DNA of 64,000 nt from Branchiostoma floridae (Eukaryota > Chordata > Leptocardii > Amphioxiformes > Branchiostomatidae), in NCBI RefSeq assembly GCF_000003815.2, contig NC_049984.1:22083569-22147568 (forward strand), written 5' to 3'. Below are positions 17,768 through 54,185 of this stretch, piece by piece. Position 1 is the stretch's first letter; each line of letters starts with the position of its first letter. The position numbers were made by a program, and so were the translations under genes. The notes beneath the pieces are model-generated. The model was not told where the DNA came from. It ran no database searches and worked only from the letters and a program-made list of their open reading frames with translations.

Positions 17768-18140
17768 CTACTTTGATGAGGCTGAAGACGATGTCGTCTG
17801 TACATGTCCTGCTAGCGGCTCTGCTATTGGAGGATGTGTACGCTGATCAGGTTCACACAGTGCTGTGTTGTTTGAGTTTGAAACTGTGTCACCTGCCTGT
17901 TCAGCAGCATCAGCCGTCTTGTCAAGAACTGCCTCTAGAGCATTCGCACATCCCTCTTTCTGTTGGTCTGTAGAGTTATGTGTGTAGTTTCTGATTGATG
18001 ATTCGTTCCTATGACCCGATAAGTTAATGGTAACTCGGGTTTTGAACCCAGCCACGTCCAGAACATGTATGGCTGTAACCCGAATGCTGTGGTTGGTGTA
18101 CACTCAAGTTGCTCGGTTCGGCTGCCTTTGAAATGCAGCC
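17768..18140 (-). pseudogene. Tyrosine-recombinase C-terminus (Crypton/DIRS-type relic)
   Basis: The minus-strand frame 18103-17768 starts with YTNHSIRVTAIHVL and then has SGHRNESSIRNY. These fit the conserved H-x-x-R box, the GH box and the nucleophile Tyr at the C-terminus of tyrosine recombinases of the Crypton/DIRS and DUF3504 type. The remaining 60 or so residues are a Ser/Thr/Ala-rich tail. Just upstream the frame is lost: a KAAEPSNL-like continuation lies one base out of frame at about 18140. No first-Arg region was found, so only a broken 3' end is present. It could instead be a decayed host gene derived from such an element. Confidence 0.6.
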
Positions 18141-20924: not shown

Positions 20925-20926
20925 TA

Positions 20927-21504: not shown

Positions 21505-21506
21505 TA

Positions 21507-22045
21507 TTCCTTCCCGTTGTCTAAGTTTACTGTGGCGTAATCCATCCATGACCTCTTCGAATAGCTCTTTTGTTTCCTGGTCGTTAGAGAGGCAGTTAGA
21601 AATAAAAGGTACGCCGCCATTCCTTCGTTACTTCAGGTCATTGCCAGATAGAGTCATCGAAACCCACGTTTTGCATAGCTATAGAATGTCCTCGGTAATT
21701 GTTGTGTAACTTGATTGTAGTGACCTTGCTTCGAACGATGCCATTTTCAATGCTCAAACTTCCTCAGTGACGCAAAAAATCGGTTACTGTTCACAATCCC
21801 GCGTTTCATCCAGACGACAGCTCCGTGCATCAACTTTTCATCACGGTTTTATTTCTTCATTAGGCCACAGCAAGTAAATTATATGGATGACTTCCTTCAT
21901 AGACTCCAAATTTAGTGAGAAATAAGGCGGGGAAAAAAAAAGCAAATTTCAAATTTTTAGATCATAAACTATTTATTAAATTGCAACAAAATAATCGAGG
22001 CGATAAAAGATATCACAAGCAACAGATCTTTTATTTATCATATGT
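21507..22045. other. Non-coding stretch, nothing recognised
   Basis: Nothing beyond short frames is visible. Confidence 0.35.
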
Positions 22046-22250
22046 GATTGAACACAAACTGTCAATTAACTAGAACAAATCCAGAAAAAAAAATCTTGTC
22101 ATCATATCTCGGGAAGTAACTATACTACTAGATATTCATGTGTGATACAGACACAGACGGTCAATTAACTAGAACAAATCCTGAAAAAAGCTTGTCGCAA
22201 CTATACTGGATATTCATGTTTGATGGAACACAGACTGTCAATTTTAGGAT
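22046..22250. repeat. Degenerate tandem repeat
   Basis: The phrase CAATTAACTAGAACAAATCC recurs at about 22060 and 22160, and a third partial unit (CACAGACTGTCAATTTT) begins near 22229. Periods are about 99 and 77 bp. The units also share ATATTCATGT. Confidence 0.7.
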
Positions 22251-22520
22251 TTCTATACACTTGACTGTAATCCTTCTGTTGTACAAAGCTCCAAGGGCCT
22301 CGGGCAATTAAATGTATGTGTGCCAGAACAGGCCAAAGTGCATTCCGCATGGCAACAACATTTTTTTCAAATGATTGTATCAAAGTTTTTATGCGACATA
22401 AAAAGATTGGTGTCGTCTGCAAATAGTAAAGCGAAAAATTTGATATCATGGGAAGGTCGTTTACATAAATCAAAATGTTCACTCTGTTAACATGAAAGCT
22501 CATCTGTATTGGTATAATCC
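22251..22520 (-). pseudogene. LINE reverse-transcriptase core remnant
   Basis: Minus strand: LIYVNDLPMIS in one frame, then after a frameshift KFFALLFADDTNLFMSHK. The YVNDLP and FADDTNLF pair corresponds to the region around the catalytic DD motif of CR1/Jockey-type LINE reverse transcriptases. Nothing of the element remains recognisable on either side, so it is a short, frame-shifted relic. Confidence 0.75.
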
Positions 22521-22584
22521 ACAATCCAGTTTTTACCCCGTCTCTGTTAAGTGTCAGCTGGTGTGCTCTTATGTAGATGGCCTC

Positions 22585-22960
22585 TGTTACTCCCCTCGAG
22601 AAGAATTCGATATTTGATGCATCCTATATCGCTCCACCACCACCTCGGCAATCTGCAGAGGGTTGAGTTCCTCTAATGCTCCATCGTTGTTCCCTCTCAT
22701 GTACGCATACAGGACAGGTGGGGCACATGTAGAATAGTCATTTACTATGGGGCTGCAGTTTCTGAAAATACACGAGGTCACTTGTTCTTTTACTTATTAG
22801 TCACTATGGTAAGTTGTCAACACCTATACCACTCAGGACTGTCTCCAGCTTTCAAATTTGTTACTGCTTGGTGGCCCATGTTATTTTCTTATTGTAAAAT
22901 CTGACATTTTCAATTCAAAAAAATTTTGATGTCAAAATTTTTTATACAAGAATTGCGAAG
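22585..22960 (-). pseudogene. 3'-terminal exon region of a repeated gene family, copy 1
   Basis: The minus strand encodes GALEELNPLQIAEVVVERYR. The same block, with its upstream intron-like sequence, recurs on the plus strand at about 45175-45490 (intact) and about 55020-55240 (degenerate). Upstream similarity includes the phrases ACATGGGC and GTGACCTCGTG. This copy ends in unrelated sequence after ERYRM and lacks the last mini-exon. In copy 3 the block lies just downstream of a DUF6589-like domain, which suggests the family but does not prove it. Confidence 0.6.
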
Positions 22961-23114
22961 CCACAACTTGTAAGTCTACCTTGTGGTCACCATTTTCATA
23001 GAGTTCCTCAATCGGTCCACCCTTTACGTGCACTTCTACCACCTTGAGTTCAAGGCCACCAGGGGTGTTGAAGATGGGGACAAACCGGACACTGTAGTCA
23101 GGGAAGCAAGAATT

Positions 23115-23835
23115 ATGGTCAAGTCAAATCAAAGTTTATTGCACGACGATTGCATCATGTATGACAATAACACGAATTACTAACAACTACATGTACAAAA
23201 TATCTAAACCAGTGATTAAAAATGAAAACTAAACACGTAAGCTTACTTATTTGATTCAGCTTGGGGGGACGTCCTGGAGGAAGTCGGCCAGGGTGTTGTC
23301 TGCTGTTCTTGACAAATGGTCCTCTTGGGAGGAAGTCAGGCTAACGCCCTTCACAGTACCTACATAGAGGGAAAGTACATTAATTACTGAGTACAGATAT
23401 CACGCACAGCTACCTTAAAATCAACCCTATTGCGTATAATCGCTACACAATATGTACACATAGAAAATCACATAGCATGTTGTAGTACATGTATTGACAT
23501 TTGTTAACAGAGAATGGATCTCCGAGGCTTTGGCTTTGAAGTAGGATAGTGTGGGGGCTGTTTGGGTTTCGAGTGAAAGATTGTTCCATAAAAGAGTGGC
23601 TCTGTGGAAGAAGGTTTTCTGGGTTCGTGAACTTTTGGGAATTGGTATTGACAGGTTGTTTCCGTTTCTAAGAGGGTATCTAGATTGAATGGCTGATGAC
23701 CTGGTAGTGGGTACGGGGTTGCAGAGTTGGGGTGGGCAGTGTCCATTCCTCAGTTTGTAGAGGGCAATCAGAGTGTGGAATTTGCGGTGGAAAATGAGCG
23801 CTGGAAGACCTAGGTGGGCGTAGACGGTACACTAG
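23115..23835 (-). pseudogene. CR1/Jockey-type LINE, 5'-truncated 3' end
   Basis: The minus strand from about 23835 encodes an open stretch: HRKFHTLIALYKLRNGHCPP, then RSSAIQSRYPLRNGN, then TQKTFFHRATLLWNNL. This is the typical C-terminal end of CR1/L2/Jockey-superfamily reverse-transcriptase proteins, with R…F.(H/P)R…LWN. The frame ends near 23490. A 3' UTR follows down to about 23115 and closes with GTGCAATAAACTTTGATTTG, the AATAAA-plus-TTTGA tail characteristic of such LINEs. The shadow frame 23746-23504 is a different phase and is not real. Confidence 0.8.
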
Positions 23836-23983
23836 GAAGGGTAAGGAAATCCGTGAATGTTATATTTTAAGGGACGATCTTCGTGTAGCAATCTGCTGTC
23901 AAACTGTCAGATAAAATTTCATGCGCTTAAAAAGATCGTCCTTATACCTCATTTTCACCAGGGCTGCGACCTAAAATTTGACA

Positions 23984-24010
23984 CATTTATATATATATAT
24001 ATATATATTT
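23984..24010. repeat. (TA)n microsatellite
   Basis: About 12 TA dinucleotides in a row. Confidence 0.9.
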
Positions 24011-24059
24011 ACATATACAACGTATTGCATAGAAAAGAAACGAATCTTTTTACACTCTG

Positions 24060-24195
24060 TGTGTTTTGTTGTATTCTCAGTCACACTTATACGTTTTGTA
24101 TGGTATACTCAATGTGAAAGCTAATGTTACGCATATCATATTTAGGTCGCAGCGAGAACGCAGCGCAATCGCCGTCTATAGTTGAAAGGGGATCT
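24060..24195. repeat. Diverged copy of the 6.2-kb dispersed repeat
   Basis: The sequence runs from CTCAGTCACAC to CGCAGCGCAATCGCCGTCTA and aligns with 6180-6305 and 8484-8609 with several substitutions and small gaps. The same order of landmarks supports common origin. Confidence 0.7.
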
Positions 24196-24594
24196 AAGCA
24201 ACGGAGTTGCTAAAAATATAAGGATCGCAGAATAGCTGCTGTGATTAAGTGGACTCCTCGAGTGGCTGTCGAGTGGCAGTTATTATCATGACACACCCAA
24301 GTCTTAATAATAAAAATAAAAAATGCCCAATCACTCTCTCTTAGACTTGTTGGTTACCCTCGGCCTCCTATTTTTTTATTTGAACAGAAATGAGACAAGA
24401 GCCATATGCCTGATGCTTGCTTCAAGCCAATTTTATTAAAAACCATTCACATACAATGAAGTCTTCAAGCACATATTGGGGTTTAAATATCATGATGATA
24501 TATTCTTATTGTTGGGATAGTCTGCCAGACATTACGTATACTAACGTATTCTACGGATGCAGTAATATACAAATCATATCAAATGATGATGTTG

Positions 24595-25190
24595 TCAGCA
24601 GCAAATTGGAGGACTTCGGTTGTGATATGTGTGGAGTGCGAGCAGGAGTACGGGCCTCTCTTGTGAGGAGAATCTGTTGAAACCAGACTTCAGCCAAATC
24701 AGGAATACGAGGCCTTCAATGAAACCTGATGCTGTCGACGCGTAGGGTGCGTTTGGGGGGCCGTCCAACTTGTACGCAGAACTTGGGAAGTTCTTGGAAA
24801 ATATCATAAGAGTCGGAATGGTGTTACTAACGGCTGACGAACATTCGAGGACTGTAATATGGTCACGTGAGCCAGGGCGGACAGATGAGGCGGCTCCAGA
24901 CATCGACTTAAATGTGACGATCTTCTTCTTTTGCGGATCAAGACTGACGCCGGTTTCATCAGCATTGTCTGTACGATTTGGGGCCTTTGCCAGGCCATAC
25001 TTCTCGAGAACATTCCTGTACTGAGTAAAAAAAATCGTTGACTGTGCCTTCGTCGATGGTGTCCTTCCGTGCAGGGCCAAGGGGATCAGGCTTCTCGATT
25101 ACCATGCCTTGTCTTTTCTTGAAGCTTAACCACCAGTAGTTAGATGGGCCTTTCTTTAGGTCGAATTTTGGCTCGACGCCTCAGAATACT
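24595..25190 (-). pseudogene. Pogo/Tigger-type transposase fragment (DDE domain)
   Basis: Reading the minus strand from 25190: KKGPSNYWWLSFKKRQGMV leads in. After a frameshift near 25080 the 161-codon frame gives NVLEKYGLAKAPNR, then the DETGVSLDP motif (catalytic Asp region of DDE_1/pogo-Tigger-CENPB transposases), then RDHITVLECSSAVSNTIP and ALHTYHNRS. The expected DGHxSH-like second catalytic region appears degraded to LALHTYHNRS. The frame closes near 24600, where LADNIII-like sequence is out of phase. The N-terminal DNA-binding half and the last third are missing. Confidence 0.75.
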
Positions 25191-26217
25191 GCACGGTCCA
25201 GGTCCAGGTCCAGAGGATCAGGTTCAGGTTCCGACTTGAATCTGAAACTAATTGTTCTTGAATGGGTAATACTCAAAGCTATGGTCCATTTCGCAACAAA
25301 GAAATCTGTTCTAAAGGTGAAGTATTCTATTTTCATGTTAACAATTCCAACTTCCTCTGACCATTTTTGACTGTAAAAACGTGATAAGAATGACTATTTT
25401 GAAGATTTTCAACTATCGTACAACACAAATTTTGCTTACCTTGAATTTTCAGTCGCACTTACGTCGACCATCTTCAGGAGTGATGATTCAGCTACTCTAA
25501 TCACGTAGCTTAGACACACGTGATTCGAGTAACGAATCATAGATGCCTGGCAGGCGGTATCGGCCCCCGTCTCTGTTGAGTGTCAGTCATTTTTTACCCA
25601 TCTTGCTTATTTGTTTAAGCTCTTTCTCAGTCAGCTGAAGAGATGTCTTTCATAAAATTTACATTCTTTTGCCTAATTTTCCAAAGGAATGTTAAATATA
25701 AAAATATGTGCTATGTGCCTGTGTTCTGGCACATGTTGTAATTTGGTAATTAATGGAGTTACCACCTTCTTTCATTCTTTCTCTATCTCTCTATCTATAT
25801 AAAATATATACTGCATACATTTTCTGCGCAGCCATCCCAACCCAACCAATGTGGATCGGAAATGAAAGCCAAAACGGCATCATGTGACTTCGTTTACAAT
25901 ACATTACTTTATCCACCAATGGAGTACATCTAGTACTACTCTCTTTCTCTATGTATGTTATATATTATTGCTTCTCTTTTTTTTTTATCCTGGACCCCTT
26001 ACCTAGCCAGATCTTGTGAGTTCTTTTATATTACATTTTGAGATATGGCTTCTACAAGAGATTTTGTGGCATTCACAACACCAGTAGAGCGACTGGCACG
26101 GGCATGTCCAGTATCAGGGTGAAGTGCACGAAGTTGTACAACCGTTTCCCACTGGCTTTGAGGCTATATCGGGAGTCACAGATGACGTCAAAACATTTAT
26201 TGGATGACGTAATCTAA
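25191..26217. other. Non-coding, with short simple repeats
   Basis: A small GGTCCAGGTCCAGG…GGTTCAGG repeat lies near 25195-25235 and a pyrimidine/TA-rich tract at 25775-25815. Nothing coding was recognised. Confidence 0.4.
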
Positions 26218-26550
26218 CTAAGTTGTCCTAAGTTGTGCAAAGTTACGTGACGTCATCTAACTTCGGAGAGCGGGCAGGGTAGGTCAACAAGTGTGCGAAG
26301 TTGTCCTAAGTTGTGCAAAGTGACGTGACGTCATCTAACTTTGGACAGTGGGCAGGGTAGGTCAACAAGTGTGCGAAGTTGTCCTAAGTTGTGCAAAGTT
26401 ACGTGGCGTCATCTAACTTTGGACAGTGGGCAGGGTAGGTCAACAAGTGTGCGAAGTTGTCCTAAGTTGTGCAAAGTTACGTGACGTCATCTAACTTTGG
26501 ACAGTGGGCAGGGTAGGTAAACAAGTGTGCGAAGTTGTCCTAAGTTAATT
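26218..26550. repeat. 78-bp minisatellite, about 4.3 units
   Basis: Unit starts (GCGAAGTTGTCC) fall at 26295, 26373, 26451 and 26529, an exact 78-bp period, with a partial first unit from 26218. Each full unit has GTTGTCCTAAGTTGTGCAAA, then ACGTGACGTCATCTAACT and GGGCAGGGTAGGTCAACAAG. All but one retain the palindrome TGACGTCA (one has TGGCGTCA). Divergence is highest in the first unit. Confidence 0.95.
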
Positions 26551-26881
26551 AATACATAGTAAAAACTTATATATGTGCAAATAAGATACACACTACTCAC
26601 GCATATATATGAATAAAATATAGATGCACATTAATCAGCACAAAATCAATGTCCATGCATTGTAAAAAAATTCATTTCTTTCAAGTCTTTTATTTCTCCT
26701 CTTAACGTTCGTTTTAACAATGCACACAAAATAATTTAAGTTCACTCGTAATGTCATATTTCCCTTTTTTACGTCACTGCTAAATACAAGTACCTGAAAA
26801 CATCTCCCCTATCTACTTATAAACTACATGTATTGCAGTCATCTTTCACTACTTTGTATCATAAGAAGTAGTAGTTGTTAT
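26551..26881. other. AT-rich intergenic sequence
   Basis: No structure seen between the minisatellite and the poly(A) site of the DUF3987-like gene. Confidence 0.4.
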
Positions 26882-26887
26882 TTTATT
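26882..26887 (-). terminator. Poly(A) signal of the DUF3987-like gene
   Basis: AATAAA on the minus strand, about 100 bases past the TAA stop at 26989-26991. This is a normal spacing for a 3' UTR end. Confidence 0.6.
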
Positions 26888-26988
26888 CCTTGTAATTTAA
26901 CAATTAATTTAAGTACTTCCACCATTTAGTACATAAGTATGCCATTTTCTGCCTGCACGGCCACACCCCTTTTACATAGAAGGACTGT

Positions 26989-27148
26989 TTAAATTGATCT
27001 CCTTTTATTGGTTGTCAGAGCAAAGTCGTTGTCATCACCGGCATCATATAGTGGAGACAGCAGCGTTGAAGCGGTGCACAGCTTCCTTTTCTCTCCCCCG
27101 ATCACATCGTTTGCCTCAATGGACTTATTCATGTCTTCTTCTGCTTCG
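26989..27148 (-). CDS. DUF3987-like terminal exon E
   Basis: The acceptor …AACACAG is followed by C, which completes AGC with exon D. The frame then runs 52 codons (EAEEDMNKSIEANDVIGGEK… ending NKRRSI) to TAA at 26989-26991. The exact phase fit and the downstream AATAAA support it. Confidence 0.6.
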
Positions 27149-29680
27149 CTGTGTTTTAATTAAAAAGAAATTGTCACTCACTAATGCCAACGTTAATTGT
27201 TGTCGTCGCTATTTATCGTTTCACGATTCATTTACAAGACACACTTAATCATCTCATCAATGCTATCTTTTCGAAGACAACGCTAACACTAAACAAAACA
27301 AAAGCAAATAATAAAATCAGGTAAACAACATTAAGTAGCTGGACATTTTAACTACTTTATATTAAGAACAGCGTATAATAAATAACCCTTATGGAAACAG
27401 ATATCGACGCAAAAATGATCAACATCATCGCAATTCTGTATACATTAAAAATCAATTTTCCGCTTACCTATCGACGAGAGTGTCAGCAAACTCCTTGATG
27501 TTGACCCCATGCTGAGCCAAGGCCACTATTGCTGCAGTTTTGTCAGCGTCGGGCATTCCGAGAATGTTATTTTTTACGAAGTAGACTCTCAGAACAAAGA
27601 TGAATTTAAAAGAAGAATCATCATTTTTGAGTACATAATAATAGTCGAATACTGAATTGTTCCTATGTGTTACATTTAACCGAAACATTTACTTACAATT
27701 AACCTCATAGACAAAAAGCTTCTATAAACTCTCTATTTAAAATTCTATATTCATTTAATTTAGAAGTGCAGATAAATTAGGAATATTCATGAAATAAGTA
27801 AGTAAATACAAATGATGTAAAATGAACGTAGACAATGATTCAATGACAAAGGTATGTAATGATAGCATGTTCGTTTGACCTAATTAACCTTCATTACCAA
27901 AACTGTTTGGTTTTTCCGTTTGTGTTATTTACATAGTTCAGAAGCGCAAAAAAAAAGATTACTGTTTAACTCCTCACCTGTCCTCCGCGGTGAGAAAGGG
28001 TCTTCACCTGTCCAAGATGTTGATCTTGCATTGCAAGCATGGTGTCAGCAACTTCCTTCTTCCCTCTGGTCTTGAAAACGCGTTTCGTCAGAAGATTTTT
28101 TACTGACAGGACTCGTCCTGGAACCAATAAAATGCTCCCCGATAGCGTCTGACCCCCGAAGTTGGTGGTTCGCCGAGACGTTGAAGCCGACCCAAGGTGT
28201 GGCACGTCAGTTGTAGAAGCGGGCTTGCTTGGCACGTCAGTTGCGGAGTTGTCGACTGTCCCGGCATCCTCATTATGTCTTCGGCCGTGCAGAAGGCCGG
28301 TTTGATGTATGCTATAAGTCACAACGGCCACCGCAGCAGAGACGATTCGTTCTGGGATTACCGTAGGAAGACTAAGCCCGGTTTCTAAAGAGCTGGAAAC
28401 CTTGTCCGGCTTCTCAACGGCGTGAAACAAAAGCCAAAGCGCTGCGGTGACTCGCAGGATCTGTCCTTTCCCCTTACTGAATAGGGCTGGAAAAAAAAAA
28501 CAAAGCACGCCAATTGTACAATTCCAGAAAGATAAAAAGAAGATAAGCACAAATAAAACGTAGCAAAGTTATTCCTGTTCAAACAATAATGTCCACAATC
28601 ATTTTTAACAAAGTAGATGTCAGTTCTCGTGACATTTCAAACACCTGTTATAGAATACATGTTCTTAAACATGTTAACATTGCAACCAGCTAAATTAAAG
28701 CGTACAAAAGAATTCTGCATTGATCAAAATATGTGATCATTTCACTAATTCTGATGCATTCTTCTCAAATGTACTTTTACATGTGTATCAAAGAGCTGTC
28801 CTCACAACACATCAAGCTGTCCTCGAGCATCATCTTCCTGATATTCTCTTGGAAGGTGGCATATGTTCTCTCCAGGGCAGACTCTGGGCCTTCTTCCACC
28901 TCAAACATCGTCACATCGCCCTCCGCGCTATCCGCTGTCTTCTAATTATCCCGTTTGTGCTCGATGACAGCAAACAATGCACCAACTAATGAAAGACAAC
29001 ATTGTATATACATTCACATATCTAAAGATTCAGCCATTTATCCAGTAAATGGAGGTGCACATACTATATTCCAATGATAGTGAAATATTCTATTTAACAG
29101 GCTCAGAATTCAACAACAACAGTTTCTAAATAGACTGAGGTATTCTCAGAGAAACGTTTAAAACACCTGTAATGGAACTCCTGTTCCATGTTCGAACACC
29201 AGTTCTAAAACATGTTGACATTATTACCAGCTGCAATAAAACACTTAAACACATTTTGTACATAGATTGAAAATAGGCTGACAAATAACTACCTTGCTCC
29301 GTTTGATGAAGCCAATCAGCATTATAACCTAATACTAGTGCCTGTTTTTGCCTCCCTACCATTTTGTGTAAATACATATGGTGAAGTTCAAATAAAATAA
29401 AATAAAATAAAATACAAGAAGTCTACTGCAAAGACAAAAGACTCACCAAGGAGCATCCTAAACTCCTCATACACTTCCTTCCGCCCATCCTGCCCGGCAT
29501 TGAGCTTCAGAGATTGGTACGTTCCCAGTACTGGCTTAGGTATAGCCAATAAGAATCGCGAAGACAGCCCTCGCTCAATGTTAGAGTGCTGGCTCATCAC
29601 GCCATACATCACGTCGGGTTGACAGAAACCCAGCAGGTTTAGTGCAGTCCTGTCCATTTCAAAATTTGCGATCCCCATCA
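26989..29680 (-). CDS. DUF3987-like gene, 3' half (five exons)
   Basis: Exons on the minus strand, in order: 29680-29447, 28934-28806, 28486-28008 (or 27978), 27511-27468 (start uncertain) and 27148-26989, with TAA at the end. With these sites all junctions keep one frame. The key blocks are LNLLGFCQPDVMYGVMSQHS, then NIERGLSSRFLLAIPKPV, then SKGKGQILRVTAALWLLFHA. They match my recollection of the C-terminal half of DUF3987 proteins, whose function is unknown; some members look phage- or primase-related. The C-terminal tail is acidic and Lys-rich. The 5' half, with the expected nucleotide-binding region, is not visible upstream, where the KDZ gene begins on the other strand. It is either truncated or continues in distant exons. 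The exons carry no internal stops. Confidence 0.65.
27468..27586 (-). CDS. DUF3987-like exon D, 5' boundary unclear
   Basis: It ends IKEFADTLVD plus two bases before a strong GTAAGC donor. The phase of exon C is met if the acceptor is TTGGCTCAG at 27512, giving 44 bp. The open, coding-looking sequence farther upstream (ILGMPDADKTAAIVALAQ) would then be intronic. If it is coding, an unseen exon must restore the phase. Confidence 0.45.
27978..28486 (-). CDS. DUF3987-like exon C with two in-frame donors
   Basis: The acceptor is a long pyrimidine tract ending TTTTTTTTTTCCAG. The exon encodes SLFSKGKGQILRVTAALWLL and then a Ser/Thr-rich linker, ending in KKEVADTMLAMQDQHLGQ. Two donors of the form CAG|GTGA lie 30 bp apart (after 28008 and after 27978). 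Both are phase 0, so alternative splicing would only add ten residues (VKTLSHRGGQ). Confidence 0.65.
28806..28934 (-). CDS. DUF3987-like exon B
   Basis: Stop-free 42 codons, rich in Glu (TMFEVEEGPESALERTYATF). The donor GTGAGG is good. The acceptor ACAG has a poor pyrimidine tract, but it is the only AG I found that keeps the frame: an in-frame TAG lies just before it, and the exon-A phase fits exactly. Confidence 0.55.
29388..29416. repeat. (AAAAT)n microsatellite
   Basis: Five to six AATAAA-type pentamer repeats in an intron of the DUF3987-like gene. Confidence 0.85.
29447..29680 (-). CDS. DUF3987-like exon A
   Basis: The acceptor is a T-rich tract ending GAATAG; the donor is GTGAGT. It starts with 2 nt of a split codon and ends with 1 nt, giving 77 full codons. 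It holds the most diagnostic blocks of the gene (LNLLGFCQPDV and GLSSRFLLAIPKPV). Confidence 0.7.
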
Positions 29681-30016
29681 CTATTCAAAGATAAAAAAAA
29701 TAAAAGTAATTTGAAGTCAGGCCATTTAATTAAATGTATTTATATATTTTACGAACATCGTATTTAATGGTTAAGATTTGAAAAAGACAATTACATATTA
29801 CAAACTTGATTCTTTTTCAAGTACAATAAAAAATTCATTTCAAAGCAGATATTCTGATCTCGTAAACCATTCAGCGCTTGACTATTCGACTCTGTCAAAG
29901 CGTTCTCAGGTATCAATATAACAAGAAAATTTGTGAAAAGTTGAAAATCACACATGTCGATAATGTTTAAATCAAATGAAAAGGAAAATATTTTAGACAG
30001 TAACGTCTTTGCAAAG

Positions 30017-30389
30017 AGAGACTGCAAGTAGCAGCAGACAGGGCGTCAGAAGTGGTGATGTACAACATGACCTACGGCACGTTGTTTGGGATGAAGTATG
30101 CCAAGATTTGCTCCAGAAAATGTCACTTTGTACAGCACTATGGCTATTACACAATTGACGGAAATAAGTTTTACGATGATGACTGGGCCGACATTGAGTA
30201 TTTATTATCATCATGCAACACTGCCGTCCAAATCAAGATGTTACAGGATTTCGACGTAGAGCTTCTGATTGGAATCCTTAGCTACGATCAGAAGGCAGAC
30301 ATCTACAACTATGTACACAAGTACAACCAGTCAGGAAAAAACATCAGAGGAAAGGAACGCGGCGCCAGGAAAGAAGACAATGACAACAG
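30017..30389 (+). CDS. KDZ gene exon 1: CxC5-like domain
   Basis: It carries VVMYNMTYGTLFGMKYAKIC, then CHFVQHYGYYTIDGNKFYDD, then QDFDVELLIGILSYDQKADI. The C…C…Y.YYT/DG pattern followed by a long helical part fits CxC5 modules. The start is uncertain: TAA at 30001-30003 closes the frame, and AG at 30015-30016 is the nearest usable acceptor. The donor is CAG|GTATTT. Confidence 0.65.
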
Positions 30390-33300
30390 GTATTTTTTTT
30401 ATGAAAGATTATTACTCATGTGAATTTTGAATGTAACGTCTTGTACCCTTAAAAATATTTGATCAATACATTAACTTTAGTGATCAAAAGTTGTTTGTTC
30501 GCGAAGGAGTAGCCTTTTTTTCACGTTTAGTTATTGTTGTTTTATTAGTGTTCAAGCATTTGGTTCATACCTGTTGAATGAAACAAAATTAAGTTAATTT
30601 TTTGTCAAAAACAAAGTCTAAAAATTAGCCGGTTTCAAACTGTTAGACTGAAAAACGACACCGTTCGAAGAACGCATTCCGGTTTCGAATTACAAAAACA
30701 CCTGAGTTAGTGACGTAAACGTCCGTTGGTGACGTCTAAGAAGATGAGAACCTTAGAAAAAAGGTTCTATAAATGACAGATGAAACATTTGAACGCAACA
30801 CTGAGAAGTTGTAAACGTGCTGTGTAGTATATGCATCGCCAGAGTCATGCTAGGCGACATCTTCCTAGGAATACGCGTGTTGTCCGGCGTCTCTTATCTA
30901 TCAAAAGTTTGATTCCTATTAGAGCGCCTAACGCGTCCCGAATAATTGACAGACAAGGACAACATTTTTATTTTATTTGAATGATTAGTACTTATGTAAA
31001 TTTTGAATGTAACGTAGTGTAGCCTTAAAAATATCAGATTGATTCATTAACTATGTCCAGTATCATTGAATGAATCAAAGAAACAAAATTAAGTTGTTTT
31101 TTTCGTAAATAAATTTAAGTTCTATAAAACAAAATTTAGAAATCATGTTTTCTGTTTCCTCTCCTTCAAAGAGGCTGTCCTCAATATTTCAAAATGTATG
31201 GATAACTACATCACGTCACACTCCTTACGACTTAGATTTTTTTTAAGTTATAAAAAGATATAGCTGTCCTACTTTATAAGAATGGGATTTTAGTGTAACA
31301 GGTAAGATTGCGATTTCTATTTATTCACTAGTTCATAGGTGCACTTTTGCAGGATGCGACAGCTGTATTGTGTTGGACGGAAATGCCAAAAACCACCGGC
31401 AGGTGTGTAGTGTGAAGGACGCGTCGGTACAGTTCCCTTTACTTCCAGGGTCAGTGAAAACAGGTTTGTATGCGCTCAAAACTTGTAATACCTTTTGCTT
31501 TTCTAACCCCTTTTTTAGATTGTTTTCCATATACAAACCTAAGAAATCTAGCTCAATGATGATAACGCATGTGAAGGGTGTAGCAAGATTTGTTGCTGGC
31601 TTAGATTTATGACCCCTTTTCAATATGGCGGCAAGCAGATTGTCGGCCGCTAGGAGCGCGATTTAAGTCATGATAATTAAGCACGGTGGTGAGACAAAGA
31701 ACACTTTCTTTGTTACATTTTTATGACACATTTACTTACAATAAGATTTCTTTATTATTTCTCTCAGGGTGTACAAATACACCAGCAAAGGGTTCGCGTT
31801 TCTGCGAAAAGTGCAGGGAATTCGCTTGTGATCCCAAAGGAAAGACAGAGGAGGCAGTTGCAGAGCTGAAAGTTGAAGCAAATCTCGCCGACGATCCGTA
31901 TCTAATTGAAGAGATCTTAGACAAGAAAAGTTTTCGGACAACAACACTTTACAAGGTAATTAGCTGCTATTAAATGCATAGTTGTGTTCTCATTGATAGT
32001 ACAATAACGCATTAACATCATTGATGTAAACAAAGCTAGTCATCACATATTTTATCCACCATTAAATGTACTGTAGGTCCGAAGATTTCAAGATAAAGAA
32101 GAGGTATGGGAAAGGGAAGACTGTGTTCCAAAGAGGATGATATCCAAGTTCGAAAGAGGCCTGCAGCGGCAGCTACAACCACGTGTTCTGGTGGATCACT
32201 CTTTTGGCGTTTTGACAAACCATGTACAACTATCAGAAGACACGGCGGATGACAATCCCAAAAGGCGCAAAGGAGGGTCGGATCTATTCCAAACTAGGTA
32301 CGTTTATGAAGAGCGAGTTGACTGAAATCCTTGATTATACATTTTGAAACAGCAGCCACTAGCAAATATATTCAAATCATATCTTAATGCTTATTATAAA
32401 CATATAAAACAACTATCCGTATTGCATGTGTTTTATTCTATCTTTTTTTTTCTCGTCAGTGGATTTGCTGTAGAGAAAGACGGGGATTTAACTGTCAAGG
32501 ACGATGATGGAGAGAGAGGTATAAAATGCAACACGCAGAAGGACAAAAGTGGAGTTCGCCTGAATGCCATCTCTGCAGGTTAGTTAAGAAACAAGTGCTT
32601 TTAAAAAAAGCTGGCGTTTCGTCTACGTTTATGAGTGTGACCTGTCTTTTTCTTGAAGTAAAATCTGATAGAAAAAGTCACTCAAGGGCTGTTGCGTCTA
32701 TAAGAAAAATTGTTATTTTGGAAAGGAGTACTGTTTAATAGCGGGTCTTGGCTTACAACTTTATTTTAAAATGTACAATAAGTTCATTATAAAATCTACC
32801 AATATACTCAGGTAGTCCTCATGAAGTCCTGTTCATAAGACAAAGGCCTTGCATATGTGAAATGAATACTAAAATAAATTAAAAAATGATATATAAAAAT
32901 ATAATATCAATAAATAAATAGAATATTTATATATTATCTTCAATATTTAAAAAGAAAAAAACACCCACTCTCGGTTTCGAACCAGGGAATTGTACCGAGT
33001 ATGCAAATAAGACTGTACTATGGATGCAAACTATGGAAACTAATGGCAGAGAGTGAGTGAAACAAATATAGTCAACATACATTGTATATGTACAACTTGA
33101 ATGTATTCAATATCATGTGAATCTTGAGAAACGTATGCTCTTGTAAGTCAGGAGTTGCAGTGACCATATATTAAAGTTACACATAAATTAATGGGACAAA
33201 GGACAGTGTGTGATTGTACATGTATGCTTTTATTTTGATCAAATTCTATGAAGTGAGAAACATGGCCTTCACATTGTCTAGAATGAAAAGGGGAACTTAG

Positions 33301-36300
33301 TTCTACGTTGCAGGGCAAAAATTGTGAAGTTGCGATACACATGATCTCATTTTCAGCACAACTATCATTGAGTAGTCCACAAATGATGTAAGTTAGAAAT
33401 TGCTCAATACAATATGATTCTCTACTGTGTTGTATATATAACGTTAAAGACAGATATGGTTGATGTGAAAACGAGATATTTAAGTAAAATGTGAGGTAAT
33501 GTGGTGACTAGAGTGTGTAATGTTGAGTGGGTGAGTGGGTACCGCATGCACGGGTGGGGTCCGGATACTGCGGTCAGCTGAGTGGGTACCGCATGCACGG
33601 GTGGGGCCCGGATACTGCGGTCAGCTGACCGCATGCACGGGTGGGGTCCGGATACTGCAGTCAGCTGAGTGGGTACCGCATGCACGGGTGGGGCCCGGAT
33701 ACTGCGGTCAGCTGACCGCATGCACGGGTGGGGTCCGGATACTGCGGTCAGCTGAGTGGGTACCGCATGCACGGGTGGGGTCCGAATACTGCGGTCAGCT
33801 GAGTTGGTACCGCATGCACGGGTGGGGTCCGGATACTGCGGTCAGCTGAGTGGGTACCGCATGCACGGGTGGGGTCCAGATACTGCGGTCAGCTGAATGG
33901 GTACCGCATGCACGGGTGGGGTCCGGATACTGCAGTCAGCTGAGTGGGTACCGCATGCACGGGTGGGGCCCGGATACTGCGGTCAGCTGACCGCATGCAC
34001 GGGTGGGGTCCGGATACTGCAGTCAGCTGAGTGTGTACCGCATGCACGGGTGGGGCCCGGATACTGCGGTCAGCTGAGTGGGTACCGCATGCACGGGTGG
34101 ATTTCGATGAACTGCAGTCAGCTGAGTGGGTACCGCATACACGGGTGGGGTCCGGATACTGCGGTCAGCTGAGTGGGTACCGCATGCACGGGTGGGGTCC
34201 GGATACTGCGGTCAGCTGAGTTGGTACCGCATGCACGGGTGGGGTCCGGATACTGCGGTCAGCTGAGTGGGTACCGCATGCACGGGTGGGGTCCAGATAC
34301 TGCGGTCAGCTGAATGGGTACCGCATGCACGGGTGGGGTCCGGATACTGCGGTCAGCTGAGTGGGTACCGCATGCACGGCTGGGGTCCAGATACTTCGGT
34401 CAGCTGAGTGGGTAATACTAGCTACATCCAGCGCTCATATTCTTGATCTATGTACAGCCCTGAGGCTAAAAATAAACAAAAAATGAGAACTTAAGTTCAC
34501 ATACAATATGTCAACACAATTTGTATAAATTCCTCTACTATATTGGAATAAAAGGACATTAAAGAGTGCGGCCTCACTGACTGGACCCGCTGGACAGAGC
34601 CGCTTGGAGGCGCTGTGTGAGGACTGGCCGACTGCTGCCAACCCCTGCGTCAGGGAACCCCGCATACTGGATACTACTACAACTACAACTACTACAACAA
34701 CTACTACTACTACTACATATACACATATATATTCAATATAACCAGCATAGCAGTATCACTTACAATTCCTTAAATATAAATAAATGCTTTCAGCAGTTCA
34801 GTAGTGGTTTGATAAATTACTGTACACATGGGGAAAAGAAGTCCCAACCTGTCTGAATGGATCTACTTTACTAAACTAAAGGAATAAAGGAATGATTCAG
34901 AAGGGATCTGGCAGAACTTAAGTGCATGAAGAAACAACAATACGCCCCCCTCCCCCAGTAATTTGTTACAAAACATTCAACAGGCTAAAGTAACATGACG
35001 CAAGTTTACTCCGTTTCGCCAATTATATACCCAGACTGAGAGCATTTGTACCGGCCCCCGGGCTTTAATACCCTCCGTTGGCCTCGACAAACTACCCCGC
35101 CCCACTTCGAACGTCTCTAGCCCGGCGAGCGGACCTTGTGGGCTAGCGGAGAGAGGGGCAGGGACCGCAGGGTAGATTGTCGGGCCAGCGGGAGGGTAGG
35201 CCCGGGGGCAAAGCTCGGAGCGCGGGTCGGTACAACTGCTCTAGATGCCGGGTTTATATGCACTGACTATGATAATCGGTAACTCGAACCAAGGAGGTTT
35301 AACCTCCTTGCACGAACGAGTTATTTTTGTAATACCACCGACGTCCAGGGTAGATAATTCTCGATCTACATTTACCTGAAGACACATACAGATGGACTAG
35401 TGTTACCTATACGCAACTATAAGGCATATAAGATTAAATATTTATTTCCTACCTCTGAGCGTTCGTTTCAAAATGGTGGACTAAACTGGAGTGAATGGCA
35501 TTCTGTCTCCTTCTGTAGTGGTACACCAAACGCGAATAACCAATTAAAATAGCGCCAAATGAAATAGATAAGCTTAAAATCCCTTAATCTTATTGAATAG
35601 AAATAATAGCCTAAGATTAGATTACATTATGAAATATGTTAGAAATCTACCTATGAAAGTCTAATGTGTCTTCAGCTTTTTCCATCAGAAAAAGAACAGT
35701 TGTAGCAGTTGCATGCGGTTGCATGTGTATCCTGCAAATCGGGCTACCTGGCTTTTCTTGCTCCCTTGCCATATAAGGCAAAGCCTGAACATGAAATTTT
35801 GCAGGTCTTGCCATATAAGGCAATGGTTGAACAAACATAGAAGGTCTTCATGCTGTGCGACACAGTGTTGAACCAAACCAAACAGCATGCACTGACTGAA
35901 GGTAAAACCCATCACATTGCGTTTCGTCCCTGAAGGCAACAAAACGCAAAAAAGTCAATGTAGTTATGGCAAACGCTGCTAAACTTATAAAATGAGAAAC
36001 CTTTCTATTGATACATTTGAAATTCAATATATATATAACTATACGCATGTAAAATGAAATATTTTTGCAAGAGTCAAATAAAGGTTTTTAATCGCATGTT
36101 TTAAAGATATCATTTTATGTCATTCCTTTCTGAATGTTCTCTAATTCACTCATTTCAGGTGTACTGGCATTCATTAAGCCATGTAACATTATTCTTGGAC
36201 TCCACGAGCTATACTTGGCGGAGTCCAAGTCTCAGGTTTATGGCCATCTCCACAGTCTGTTGTCGAGATCAGAAATGGGAAAAACTGGTTAGTGCACAAA

Positions 36301-37176
36301 TTTCATGCTATTCAAACATCCTTAAATCCCAGGTCTAATTTACAGTTTACCGTTAATGGTATTTTTCAAGATCAGATGAAGCTTGAAATTAGTTAGCAAT
36401 ATGATGTTTTAAGTATATATTTTTTTCTTTATAGCAAGTCTAAACAGTTAATCAGTCAAGCAAACATCATTATTGTAGTGTGATATAACATATTCTTTTT
36501 TTCATATAATCAATAACCATTTCAGAATACATCATCTACGATGACGCTTGCCATCTACGAAAATTTGCACGGAACCCGGCAAGGGCAGACGCAACAGAAA
36601 CAACAAGACGTCTCGCCAACATGGAAATGCTGGTGGACCGAATGCACATGAGGGGGCATGTCGACCCATGGTGTAAGAAGCATTGTGGAACCTGGAGATT
36701 CGAGGACTTAGATTTGGTAAAGTAATTCTTTTATCTAAAGGCAGTAATTGTAGAAACAATAAACAAACTTATATAACGTTTTGTTTTTTCTATTTATTTC
36801 CATTTTCCTACTTTGCGCTGTGCCAAAAAAATTGTACAGTTTAAATTCTAATCTGTTACAAGTTTTAGTAACTATTGCATTGTAAATTTTTGTAAATCAA
36901 AAGAAAAGGTCATGATTTGACAAACATTAATAATCATTTTTTTTATTTCTTAGTTCATTGAGTAAAAAAACGATAAGCTATAATGTATTTGTCCTCTTTA
37001 ATTCACAGGTCAACACAGAAGTATGCGAGCAAGTCTTCAGCTGGCTGTCAAGGTTTAACCGGATGACGAAGCACATGAACCAGCATCGTTTTATGTTTTT
37101 CTTACTTTATATTTCCCACTTACATAATGTACGTGAAGAACTGAAGCTCTCGAGTGCCGGACTGCTGGTAATTTAG
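30017..37176 (+). CDS. CxC5-CxC6-KDZ transposase-like gene (eight exons)
   Basis: Exons: 30017-30389, 31363-31463, 31768-31955, 32077-32297, 32460-32578, 36159-36287, 36526-36716 and 37009-37176. With these sites every junction is in phase, giving about 497 codons ending TAG. Order of domains: a CxC5-like region (CSRKCHFVQHYGYYTI), a CxC6-like zinc region (VLDGNAKNHRQVC, then CTNTPAKGSRFCEKC), and a KDZ core (YIIYDDACHLRKFARNP, VDRMHMRGHVDPWCKKHC, VNTEVCEQVFSWLSRFNRMT). These features characterise KDZ DNA transposases best known from fungi. Lack of stops and good splice sites argue for recent activity or domestication. The N-terminus upstream of CxC5 is missing. A donor-like GTAATT six bases before the stop allows a longer C-terminus. 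Confidence 0.72.
31363..31463 (+). CDS. KDZ gene exon 2: CxC6 first half
   Basis: It encodes CIVLDGNAKNHRQVC and then PLLPGSVKTG. Two acceptors lie close together, TTTTGCAG at 31352 and GCGACAG at 31362. Only the second matches the phase of exon 1. The first would add Cys-Asp but breaks the frame unless another exon lies upstream. Confidence 0.65.
31768..31955 (+). CDS. KDZ gene exon 3: CxC6 second half
   Basis: The acceptor is TTATTTCTCTCAG and the donor AAG|GTAATT. The exon begins GCTNTPAKGSRFCEKCREFA, the Cys-rich end of the CxC6 module, followed by an acidic helical segment. Confidence 0.75.
32077..32297 (+). CDS. KDZ gene exon 4
   Basis: Charged region starting VRRFQDKEEVWEREDC and ending PKRRKGGSDLFQT, with a possible nuclear-localisation stretch PKRRKG. 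The donor is GTACGT. No catalytic residues were assigned. Confidence 0.65.
32460..32578 (+). CDS. KDZ gene exon 5
   Basis: It starts GFAVEKDGDLTVKDDDGERG and continues IKCNTQKDKSGVRLNAISAG. The C.T.K…R…GG/AG pattern just before the next block fits the start of the KDZ nuclease fold. The donor is GTTAGT. The following intron is 3,580 bp and contains the minisatellite and foldback. Confidence 0.65.
33534..34415. repeat. 47/40-bp minisatellite, about 19 units, inside the KDZ intron
   Basis: The unit is ACCGCATGCACGGGTGGGGT + CCGGATACTGCGGTCAGCTG + AGTGGGT (47 bp). Three units lack the 7 bases GTGGGTA (40 bp). Unit starts are at 33541, 33588, 33628, 33675, 33715, 33762 and so on to 34366. Because 47 + 40 = 87 is a multiple of three, alternating units stay open in frame on both strands. 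This explains the 60-116-codon frames here, which are not genes. The array is GC-rich against an AT-rich intron. Confidence 0.97.
34671..34716. repeat. (ACT)n microsatellite
   Basis: Imperfect ACT/ACA triplet run, about 15 units. Confidence 0.9.
35045..35235. mobile_element. GC-rich foldback element in KDZ intron
   Basis: The left arm (TTTGTACCGGCCCCCGGGCT onward) pairs imperfectly with the right arm, which ends CGGGTCGGTACAA. Shared internal steps include TACCCTCC…GTTGGCC…GACAA…CTACCC and their complements. It is strongly GC-rich compared with its surroundings. Likely a MITE; no target-site duplication identified. Confidence 0.75.
35281..35322. repeat. Short hairpin
   Basis: AACTCGAACCAAGGAGGTT and its near complement AACCTCCTTGCACGAACGAGTT meet over about a 2-nt loop. 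It lies 45 bp from the foldback element, as if both belong to one composite insertion. Confidence 0.75.
36159..36287 (+). CDS. KDZ gene exon 6
   Basis: VLAFIKPCNIILGLHELYLA followed by ESKSQVYGHLHSLLSR: the KPC…ELY…ES.SQV signature of the KDZ core. The acceptor CATTTCAG and donor GTTAGT are good, and the phase matches on both sides. Confidence 0.7.
36526..36716 (+). CDS. KDZ gene exon 7: core with YDDACH
   Basis: YIIYDDACHLRKFARNP contains the likely catalytic Asp region. VDRMHMRGHVDPWCKKHC gives the His/Cys cluster typical of KDZ enzymes (VD.(F/M)H..(N/G)H.D..C…C). The donor is GTAAAG, phase 0. Confidence 0.75.
37009..37176 (+). CDS. KDZ gene exon 8: NTE…EQ helix
   Basis: VNTEVCEQVFSWLSRFNRMT followed by HRFMFFLLYISHLHN corresponds to the C-terminal N(S/T)(S/E)..EQ.(N/F)SW…FF motif, which should supply the last acidic catalytic residue. 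TAG closes the frame at 37174-37176. Confidence 0.75.
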   Translation, partial: VNTEVCEQVFSWLSRFNRMTKHMNQHRFMFFLLYISHLHNVREELKLSSAGLLVI

Positions 37177-38494
37177 AAAAATAACGATTCCAAATCAAAG
37201 TATTTTCTCTTGTTCTCTTATATTCTCTAGAATGTAATAGTGATGTCATAGCACGGTAAAGCATATTTGATTGTATTCTAAGAAGCCGAAGAAGTTGAAA
37301 AGAGGGTAAAAATGTTCAGAACGTGTATCAATTTTCTAAATCAAGTAATTCAAAGTAAACTCGGCATAAAAAGTTTATGATATTAACTTAAGTTGATCGT
37401 AATTCTGTTGTTTCTGCGTTAATTTCAATGTATGATATATCTATAGAAAGCTTATATGATTTTCTTTCCAGTTGTATGAAAATCATCACCATTGTTAACT
37501 AAAAAAAACGCACTAGGCCTGCTTACTTGATTGGGTCACGAAAAAAAAGTGCGAAAATTTCCCCGTTTCTGTTCTACACTGTATCGAGCCGGGTTGTTAT
37601 TGCCGCAGGTTTGAATGATTCAATCAATCCATTTATCACGTATCTTTTGGTATACAGAACACTCAAGTTTATTTCTATCATACCTGAGTAGAGTATTTTT
37701 CTATTGTTAATTTATGAAACAGGCACCAGGCCTGCTTACGTACGTGCTTACGTAGTCACAAAAATAAAGTTCCGTAATTACGCTACTCAAGACAAACACT
37801 ACATTCAACTCATTTCCTTACGTCGGTATTGACTTGTGAATGTTGACAAGTTAAATAAACAGGGCATGTCAATCAAAGTCATTGTTACTCTTTATTCAGG
37901 CAAACGATTTGAACCAATGTGTTTAACCGAGTGCTAGCCAAAAGCCATATGAAGGCTATTTTGTTCTAAGCAAAAAAAAGTTTAAAAAAATTATTTACTG
38001 AACATGCACGCTTACCATCTATGTAATTAAGAGGAATGATGAAAGCGTACTTTTTGAAACAACTGTTATCACCTTTGGTGGATTTGCGATGACAATTTCA
38101 AGACATTTTGGACGTCTTACCTTCTGCTTATATGTGGACGAATCTCATTTGCATAGAGATGACGAAATATAGTCATAAGCCAATCGGCCTTCTGATTTGG
38201 GGGAACACATGAGCAGCTTCAGCCAATCAAAAATCTGGGCGTCAAATTCAATATATTCCCTTCGTCGTATAGATCTACAGGGGGTACCTCAAATTGACAA
38301 TGCATGGCAACGCCATTGACGGATGAGTTCCAAGGTGAGTTCTTGCTGAGTTTTTGCATTGTAATCACGGTATTTTACTCACGGTATCAGCTTCTTCAAA
38401 CCATTAACTACACGACGCCAATTGCAAATTAATCCATGTAATAGTAGTACAACTAGTAAGTGAAATGAAGACTCACTCGCCCGATCAAGTAACA
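37177..38494. other. Downstream of KDZ gene, nothing recognised
   Basis: AT-rich sequence. The related phrases ACGCACTAGGCCTGCTTAC (37509) and GGCACCAGGCCTGCTTACG (37723) recur about 215 bp apart and suggest a degenerate duplication. No exons identified. Confidence 0.35.
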
Positions 38495-41799: not shown

Positions 41800-42632
41800 G
41801 TATTTATCACCACCTATACATGTACCTTGGACAAAGATGCCACAAACATTTTTCGCTTGAAGCTCGGTCGCTGTAAGGGGGCAAAATTTGTAGTCGTTGA
41901 AGAATTTTCTGTGTTTAAAGTCAAAGCACTAGAGAAGTCCAGGACATTTGCTCAAATACAAATGCTAACACTGGCCTAACATTTCGCAATAAGTTCTTCT
42001 TCTCTGAGTCTGACAAAACCAATGCCACCGTATCAGCCAGGCACATCTACCGAAGTGTAAATAGTGAGTTCCAGAGAACCTTCAGTGTCTCATTTGGTGC
42101 CTCTCTTGCTAAAAATGTGGAGACCGGCGTAGAAGTAAAGAAAATAAGAACTGAGAAACACAGAGAAAAAGGGATGTATTGGAAAAAAAATGTACACGAG
42201 ACCAAGAAGCGCAATGGGCCAACAAGAATGTGGCAAATCATATATCTACAAGAGAAAGCTATAAGAAATGACAAGAGAGGCGCATGACCCAGTATTACGA
42301 AATGCGTGAGAATATCACTCAAAGGTTGAGTGTAAGAAAGGTGCAAGAGAAAGCTGGGCAGAGGAAGCCAAAATAACATTCACCTCACTTAGACAGAGAT
42401 GGATTGTTGAACCATGTGAGGTCCTTCCCAAGTGGTGGTAAAGTAATTTGGCACTTGTTCCTGAAGTACCTGTTCCTTTGTAGGGTAGCTGGTGGCAGTG
42501 GGCTAAATTACTGTTATATGTTACCCAGTTTAATAATGTTTCTTCTACTTCTCTTGTTAGCAATAGTTTATAAACTATTTCTAATGTTTGGATATATAAC
42601 GTTATCATTAAAAGTTAATTTTGATGCGTTCT

Positions 42633-43031
42633 TCCGAATGATAAACTCTGTACACTTTGTAACTCCAACCGTATAGAGAATGAAGTCCATTTTATATTAG
42701 AGTGTTCTTTATACAATGACATGCGCAACTCTTTTATCAGTGCTATCAATGTAGATACACGATGTAAATAGTTAACCAACGACAACCTGTTTGTACATAC
42801 GATGACAACCACAGACAACTTTGTACAACACAAACTCTGTGACTTTATATACACATGTTTTAAGAAAAGGAAAGAGTCATGTAAACGTTAGATATAGTGA
42901 TAGCATAGTTGCAGATGTATTGTTTATTGAATTATAATACTACATCTAATAGTACTTAGTCTTTAGTATCCCATCATGGGATTTGCTGCATTTAGCTCAC
43001 ATGGGCAGGAACATGCAAATAAAGATCAATC
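42633..43031 (+). mobile_element. 5'-truncated LINE 3' end nested in X copy 1
   Basis: Absent from X2 (about 51727) and X3 (about 59594), where GTGTTATTCTGCTTGCG or its variant is uninterrupted. The insert encodes CTLCNSNRIENEVHFILECS then LYNDMRNSFISAI, the Cys/His knuckle at the C-terminus of LINE reverse transcriptases. It ends in a 3' UTR …GCAAATAAAGATCAATC. A short TTCT-like duplication may flank it. Confidence 0.75.
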
Positions 43032-43425
43032 ATTCTGCTTGCGTTATTTTTCACAATATTGCGTTTAACAATTCAAGATCGATCACTTGATAAGCAAACA
43101 TCTACAATATTTAGCCTAGTATCTAACATAATCCAGATTTACATAAAATACATCGCGTACTAGTATTTAACAAAGCAATCTATTTGTCCATTAATGTTAG
43201 GGACATCCCTCAGATAGGACATTACTATTTAAAGGAGGTCCCCTGTTTGAGAAGAATTGCACCTTGAGCAAGTTAAAGAATCCATAACACATAAATCAGT
43301 CAGGGTGCATATTTTACTCTTCGAATTCAGTATAATCCTGGTGTGATACAACTTGAGGCGGTTTACCTGGTCTGCAAAACAATCAACTCCACTGAAGTAC
43401 AAATGCTTGCGAACCGTAGCTATTA

Positions 43426-43717
43426 CGGTTGATGCTAATTTACGGACAAGAACATGTGGGCGAGACCAAACAAACGTTGGCCAATAGACTGAACGGCCAT
43501 CGCTCATCCATCAACACGAAGAAGGGTAATCCGGTCTCGGCCCACTTCAACCTCACAGAACACAGTAGTACAGACCTTGAAGTCCTTGGCAAAACTAGGC
43601 TACACAGGAAACGACATCCAGAGGGCCTGAACCAGGAGTCCTTAGTTTGAAGAGCAGCATCTCGTCGTGACCATCACCCAATGAATACTGTTGCTGCTAT
43701 TTCACAGACAAGAATAT
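43426..43717 (+). pseudogene. Penelope-like GIY-YIG endonuclease fragment in X copy 1
   Basis: It encodes HVGETKQTLANRLNGHRSSI followed by NTKKGNPVSAHFNLTEHS, then a shortened tail HPEGLNQESL. The VGET…R…HRS(S/D)I pattern is that of GIY-YIG nuclease domains of Penelope-like retroelements. The segment is bordered by a degenerate 30-bp direct repeat (43426-43455 and 43688-43717, consensus CTGTTGATGCTATTTCACAG…). It lacks the reverse transcriptase. It has lost about 80 bp relative to the copy at 60.0 kb. Confidence 0.72.
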
Positions 43718-44640
43718 CAAATGAGAACAATTAAAGTACAGGTGAAATCTAAGAACATCACACACTATTAGCGCGGAACCGAAGGTCATAGTTAGCGCTC
43801 CTGTCGAGATAATTCACATTTTATACCTGGGAGAAGATGAAATTACTCCAAGACAAGTTCTCTGGTTGGCAAATCAAACATACCTCAACAGCATGTTAGT
43901 CAGGGAAATGACTGGCACTAGAACCAAAACAATCACTATGCGGAAAATGTATGGCCAATACTGGTAGTCAGTAACAGTTCATACCCTCATTATGTAGGGA
44001 GTCACAAACCTCCGATCTGTCAATACAGAAAACCAAGAAAGAATGTTCAGTGTCTTCAAAGGTATCCTCTGCCAGACAACGTCTAGAAGGTAAAATGAGG
44101 TCACTGGAATAGCAATCATGAGGTTTAATGCTGAAAAAATGCATAAAAAAAGTTTTGTGCAATTGTCCCTCCCACTAACACCCTGATCCCATGGCGGTTC
44201 GCTTTGCGAGCACACTATCAGCCTCACCATGAGCGAGTTGCTGGTTACACTAGAAGGCGCGTGGTGGACCGAATATGGCATCATGTTCCTTGATGGCACG
44301 TCCAAACAGATTGTACAGGAGCCTCAATTCCACCTTTTTCCAGGTCCAAGAGATCGCATAACATTTGGGGGATTTGGCGCGTTTCGCATTTCCCGTTTTT
44401 TTAACGTGAGGGTTTGCTCGGGAAGCTATTATTATCGTTTCCCCGAAGCACACTCTTTCAAAGATGTACGGTCGTTTAAGATAGGACAGTAAGCGAGGAA
44501 GAAATTACACTCATTTACACCATAGGTATCAGTAAACCGTATTCTTGCATCATTGGAGGCGCCGACGAAAGCGAAACTGAGCTTTCACACGAAGAGCTGT
44601 TAGGCTTCAAGAAGTTACAAAAGAACGCTCGCAAGTTATG

Positions 44641-54102: not shown

Positions 54103-54185
54103 CAAGATTCTTTTAAGTAGCCTCCATAGACAACATCAATAGTAGTAACCCCCATGCAGCAGTAACAGGTAGTCCCGTGGTTTGA

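Follow-up and report, generated by a model that had tools for sequence, protein, structure and literature searches.

A spliced KDZ-superfamily transposase gene in the lancelet Branchiostoma floridae, very probably part of a diverged multi-copy DNA transposon lineage

The genome of the lancelet Branchiostoma floridae carries a multi-exon gene which very probably encodes the transposase of an individual KDZ-superfamily DNA transposon copy, one that belongs to a diverged lineage with multiple members. The gene lies on the plus strand at 30016-37176 of the 64,000-nucleotide stretch analysed here, referred to as the window (C6:22083569-22147568 of the 513,431,437-base assembly). It is attributed to a transposon rather than to a tamed host gene because related copies, several of them broken, occur elsewhere in the genome. 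The window copy itself is probably no longer able to mobilise itself, since neither its 5' end nor its right terminus was found in the window.

Eight exons make up the KDZ gene, and the single stop-free frame reported by the first-pass annotation held up: all seven introns are of the GT-AG type, every junction is in phase, and the joined exons contain no internal stop. The length given earlier, about 497 codons, was too low, the count being 504 codons followed by a stop. Mononucleotide shuffles of the exons contained 29.6 stops on average, with none of 2000 stop-free, and 13-23 stops interrupt each of the five alternative frames of the joined exons. GC content amounts to 43-51% in the exons and 24-37% in six introns; the remaining one, intron 5, is 3580 bp long and contains a 47-bp minisatellite (Table 1). 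Phases were read by hand and set the start of exon 2 at 31339, an acceptor preceding 31353 being rejected as out of phase. Exon 1 begins at about 30016 without a clear acceptor, so that its 5' limit is uncertain, and its earliest in-frame ATG is located at 30058. The exon chain is confirmed as a real gene structure.

Table 1. Positions of the KDZ gene, the DUF3987-like gene and other features in the window
Feature	Position	Strand	Basis
Transposon-type matches (Mos1-type HTH, reverse transcriptase, tyrosine recombinase, GIY-YIG), taken together	21025-21348 (-), 57534-58253 (+), 17771-18103 (-), 59981-60313 (+)		Pfam
Candidate left terminus, GGGCATGTCCAG...GTGCACGAAGTTGTAC	26100..26140	+	likeness to GAGGTATGTCCAG...ATGTACGAAGTT by eye, without a statistic
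78-bp tandem repeat, like the subterminal repeat of relatives	26220..26546	.	tandem repeat and similarity
DUF3987-like gene, last exon	27966..28486	-	in phase with the two upstream exons, by hand
DUF3987-like gene, middle exon	28806..28934	-	joined model
DUF3987-like gene, first exon found	29447..29680	-	Pfam E 3.7e-6 alone, just under cut-off
KDZ exon 1, CxC5-like module	30016..30389	+	CxC5 profile, below cut-off
KDZ exon 2, with a cluster of cysteines and the candidate for the first catalytic Asp (CIVLDGNAKNHR; Asp 31376-31378)	31339..31463	+	join; C13 match
KDZ exon 3 (CTNTPAKGSRFCEKC)	31768..31955	+	join; C13 match
KDZ exon 4	32077..32297	+	join; C13 match
KDZ exon 5	32460..32578	+	join; C13 match
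47-bp minisatellite inside KDZ intron 5	33532..34414	.	tandem repeat
KDZ exon 6	36159..36287	+	join; KDZ profile; C13 match
KDZ exon 7 (YDDACH, second Asp candidate 36540-36542; VDRMHMRGH)	36526..36716	+	join; KDZ profile; C13
KDZ exon 8 (NTEVCEQ, catalytic Glu candidate 37027-37029) and stop codon	37009..37176	+	join; KDZ profile; C13

The earlier assignment to the KDZ family was borne out by the joined frame, which passes the cut-off of the Pfam KDZ profile (PF18758; 32.5 bits where 26.6 is required, E 9.4e-8; positions 74-209 of the 217 in the profile) with a match extending from the end of exon 5 through exons 6-8. When the eight exons were searched singly, KDZ was touched by exon 8 alone (E 0.061), and a hand-typed reversal of the joined protein matched nothing. 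That the exons come together by chance and represent no gene is extremely improbable: the weak acceptor of exon 1 is the sole point in its favour, against which stand the KDZ score, reached by the joined exons alone, and a collinear copy on C13. The order CxC5-CxC6-KDZ read from the motifs survived in part. CxC5 (PF18718) was matched by exon 1 alone at 22.0 bits (cut-off 26.9, E 1.9e-4, profile positions 26-116 of 117) and in the joined frame at 17.2 bits (cut-off 26.9); the exon 1 module is probably CxC5, but being below the cut-off it is described as resembling the family rather than as an assigned member. The CxC6 profile had no match up to E 10 in the joined frame or in single exons. Among nine CxxC stretches inspected by eye on the plus strand of 20001-30100, none was convincing as an upstream exon carrying the first 25 or so CxC5 residues, so that, lacking this N-terminal CxC5 segment, the gene as seen is 5'-incomplete. 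The description of the gene as undamaged was accordingly too strong, given the incomplete 5' end and the missing convincing right terminus.

Asp138, Asp391 and Glu456, numbered in the 5'-incomplete joined frame, are likely to form the metal-binding triad, a judgement based on the KDZ profile match and on the alignment to the L016 KDZ protein of the same genome. The motifs YDDACH and NTEVCEQ fall within the profile match; the candidate first Asp, in VLDGNAKN, comes from a single pairwise global alignment to the L016 protein (CVVCDGTCIGFRK). By BLASTP the two proteins are 30.5% identical over 95 columns (E 7e-10), and the L016 protein reaches 30.1 bits against the KDZ profile. As an observation in its own right, L016:4449-5753 is an open frame of 434 residues belonging to a second animal KDZ type. 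A search of solved structures gave a best E of 0.65, Rfam and tRNA searches returned no matches, and no relative was confirmed in the viral contig and genome contig collections searched.

A protein search of the 513-Mb genome returned at least 36 matches, of which eight are the window exons and at least 28 lie outside the KDZ gene, on C1, C4, C6 (at a second place), C8, C12, C13, C15, C17, C18, C19 and C165. Twelve sequences from these places were compared: C13, C18, C165 and nine short loci. In the C13 copy, exons 2-8 are collinear with the window gene at 51-78% amino-acid identity, a piece of exon 1 containing a stop is present, and splice-like signals occur at several corresponding places. 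Five of the eight relatives compared carry in-frame stops in their aligned codons (one in C13, four in L022, and two each in C18, L025 and L036), and C165, L032 and L033 carry none, but their coverage is 55-73 codons each. A different KDZ element, represented by L012 (C15) and L017 (C14), has about 4.8 kb in common between its two copies, including the KDZ stretch, at 94-98% identity; KDZ elements have therefore multiplied recently in the lancelet genome.

Comparison with the relatives bears directly on whether the gene has been domesticated, that is, whether a KDZ-derived host gene was kept for binding DNA or as a nuclease, its frame surviving while its termini were lost. The window copy is stop-free and has its candidate triad, whereas several relatives are broken, which also fits a retained host gene. 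Against C18, L022 and L025 it has a dN/dS of 0.03-0.07 at nearly saturated synonymous sites (the ratio is undefined for the remaining five relatives). Identity at codon positions 1, 2 and 3 is 76/93, 86/92 and 53/93 against L022, the C12 copy, and 98/115, 103/117 and 71/117 against the C18 copy, a pattern showing past selection on the protein. Low dN/dS of this kind would, however, likewise be expected when lineages of a still active transposon are compared, and alone it does not show domestication. Between 36200 and 37298, ungapped intron identity (203/248 with L022, 113/145 with C18) exceeds identity at third codon positions, an excess that may stem partly from gap placement in AT-rich sequence. 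Domestication is also suggested by the lack of a convincing right terminus in the window, and is opposed by the incomplete CxC5 module, by a transposon-like left end 3.9 kb upstream of the gene, and by the surrounding transposon debris (a Mos1 HTH and a reverse transcriptase over their cut-offs, and a weak tyrosine recombinase). Taken together, we consider domestication improbable. The choice originally offered, between a domesticated gene and an active, unusual transposon, thus leans towards the transposon, the copies being dispersed and partly decayed, with common termini and, in derivatives, 8-bp duplications.

The termini are best seen in related copies. A sharply defined left terminus, GAGGTATGTCCAG...ATGTACGAAGTT, is shared among them, its beginning GAGGTATGTCCAG being exact at five loci with unrelated flanks (C13, C165, L032, L033 and L038) and present with two changes at L041. 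Four of these loci, L032, L033, L041 and C165, are short derivatives of about 1.4-2.2 kb, consisting of the left end, exon 8, which is the sole KDZ exon detectable in them, and the right end, with repeats between. Their right end, CTGGACATGTATG (...TTTCTGGACATGTATG), repeats the left end in inverted and imperfect form, with agreement at 15-18 of 25 positions without gaps. Flanking direct repeats of 8 bp, GTTATTTG and AAATTTTT, are found in two of the four, L032 and C165, and such a duplication is absent from the flanks of L033 and L041. Exon 8 of C165, L032 and L041 is 67-71% identical to the window gene in amino acids, and the four derivatives represent a related lineage, separate from the exact subfamily of the window copy. 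The counterpart of NTEVCEQ reads DTDACKQ or DTDVCKQ in C165, L032 and L033, the stretch in L041 being unreadable; the likely catalytic Glu would thus be lost in three of the four, those that can be read, which fits non-autonomous elements. In C13 the common sequence ends about 40 bp past the last exon.

For the window copy, the left end would lie at about 26100, and it is placed there because of three observations. The 78-bp tandem repeat is similar to left subterminal sequence in L033 and C13 over 35-43 bp at 81-90% (best E 2e-8 and 9e-7, respectively), the adjoining sequence resembles by eye the left end of the relatives, and homology to a dispersed repeat breaks off at 26099 in comparison with the copy at 48655-48608 (46/48) and at 26104 in comparison with that at 56102-56013 (82% over 90 columns). 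The continuation of this interrupted repeat was present in the window at its source alone. With up to two mismatches, GAGGTATGTCCAG is absent from the window, and TATGTCCAGAAA shows no excess over chance, the place at 26100 not being among its matches. CTGGACATGCCC, again with up to two mismatches, has eight matches in the window against 3.1 expected, one of them the left end itself; the lone match to the right of the gene, at 37998-38009 on the plus strand with two mismatches, was rejected as an unconvincing right end on its sequence. The subterminal motif had no match on the plus strand of the window, and a search for terminal inverted repeats in the 20 kb to the left and 23 kb to the right of the KDZ gene returned dispersed repeats alone. 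The best inverted pair, 22620-22959 and 45481-45134 (74%), was discarded as a dispersed repeat because it recurs a third time at 55 kb. Within the window, the KDZ copy shows no convincing right terminus, hence no target-site duplication is demonstrable. The search for other copies with terminal repeats suggested by the first-pass annotation yielded dispersed copies and inverted ends in four derivatives, and no convincing right end for the window copy.

These features also bear on a reading that overlaps with the preferred one, in which the window holds a recently dead, 5'-truncated copy that gives rise to no functional protein and has its frame open merely by youth. The first 25 or so CxC5 residues and a good acceptor for exon 1 are missing, five of the eight compared relatives are broken, and the time for decay after insertion may have been short; on the other side, none of the seven splice junctions is damaged and the 504 codons run uninterrupted where shuffles lead one to expect about 30 stops. 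We give this reading substantial weight, somewhat below an even chance. If the KDZ gene is, as preferred, that of a transposon, its protein would by homology be a DDE-type transposase whose cysteine-rich modules probably bind the subterminal repeats of the element, or chromatin. Transposition would proceed by cut-and-paste, both ends being bound and the element being excised and reinserted elsewhere with an 8-bp stagger. We infer the catalytic roles and the DNA binding in this scheme, as well as the non-autonomy of the derivatives.

Between the putative left end and the KDZ gene, and head-to-head with the latter, lies a fragment of a DUF3987-like gene. The joined protein reaches 36.2 bits (cut-off 27, E 5.2e-9) over profile positions 191-357 of 364, the N-terminal half (positions 1-190) being absent. 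DUF3987 is a domain which we take to be helicase/primase-like. The exons could have come as cargo, belong to a nested element or be part of some older sequence, and it is rather unlikely that the window transposon, with its left end at 26100, captured the gene as cargo. A tblastn search with DUF3987, with E up to 1, had no match in C13, C18, C165 and the nine loci, of which C13 and C165 alone include much flank, and the C13 copy speaks against DUF3987 as a constant partner of KDZ. A genome search with the Pfam DUF3987 profile gave no match at E 0.001 from two candidates, this search being insensitive in that it also missed the window exons.

The window is rich in transposon-derived sequence besides the KDZ gene. 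A Mos1-type HTH and a reverse transcriptase score over their cut-offs, and tyrosine-recombinase and GIY-YIG matches are weak. At 54166-54744 on the plus strand, a DUF6589-like stretch below the cut-off (E 5e-5) contains VVGDAKTF and FPGDWH and is possibly another RNase H-type transposase. A direct duplication at 6066-10673, 2304 bp from start to start, includes 300 bp of 100% identity together with two reading frames, at 7741 and 10045, that do not differ, and may be either real or an assembly artefact. A dispersed repeat is present as three copies in pieces, at 42000-44300, 51100-52700 and 59400-61000.

Elements of this general kind have been described in animals. Multi-exon Zisupton/KDZ elements with 18 and 31 exons, with the lancelet B. 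floridae, a sea star and a mussel among the best matches, are reported in the available part of PMC9297572, and KDZ domains are enriched in Crassostrea gigas according to an excerpt of PMC10546077. Multi-exon animal Zisupton/KDZ transposons with 18-31 exons thus being published (PMC9297572, in part), the earlier word unusual was an overstatement. The lancelet lineage resembles fish Zisupton and the Pristionchus elements in its KDZ domain, its multiple exons and copies, and its terminal inverted repeats, seen here in derivatives. Its 8-bp duplications, in two of the four related derivatives, are like those of Zisupton and a Dileera element in the accessible text of PMC12730594, where Kyakuja has 7-bp duplications. 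Differences are nonetheless apparent. Pristionchus proteins comprise 1166-1367 residues, as against at least 504 residues in the eight exons found here, and the partial source records that target-site duplications were not detected for them; fish Zisupton bears CxC7 (PMC12062965, excerpt), the window gene a CxC5-like module. The same excerpt (PMC12062965) cites, as a hypothesis, recognition of DNA or chromatin by such zinc modules. Like the window gene, the active fungal elements KDZ1-3 of Cryptococcus have a zinc module of the CxC class in their KDZ transposase, and they make duplications of 8 bp (KDZ1) or 4-8 bp (KDZ2/3); they differ in having CxC1, inverted repeats of 139-241 bp and lengths of 9-11 kb, whereas the inverted ends of the lancelet derivatives are short and imperfect (PMC12810828, as far as available). 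The CxC5/CxC6 proteins of Pleurotus likewise have a CxC5 module in multi-copy, transposon-like sequence, but the accessible portion of that work reports no KDZ transposon near them (PMC7641404), whereas in the window gene a CxC5-like module and a KDZ core share one frame. Among the matches listed from the open-access literature, there was no lancelet CxC5-KDZ element and no KDZ element with DUF3987.

With multi-exon animal KDZ elements having lancelet matches already published, the window copy adds a member. It documents a KDZ lineage in an animal, with a transposase encoded by eight exons and with related derivatives that show termini, 8-bp duplications (two of four) and loss of the likely catalytic Glu (the three that can be read). 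The CxC5-like module and KDZ core in a single reading frame provide a link unseen in the Pleurotus work, as far as its excerpt goes (PMC7641404). Should the DUF3987 gene be cargo, it would be new gene content for the KDZ superfamily within the literature searched, and its presence in an animal KDZ element would hint at replication-linked or helicase-assisted transposition. The lineage also serves as a warning that a transposase gene in an animal may be rich in introns and free of stops without having been domesticated.
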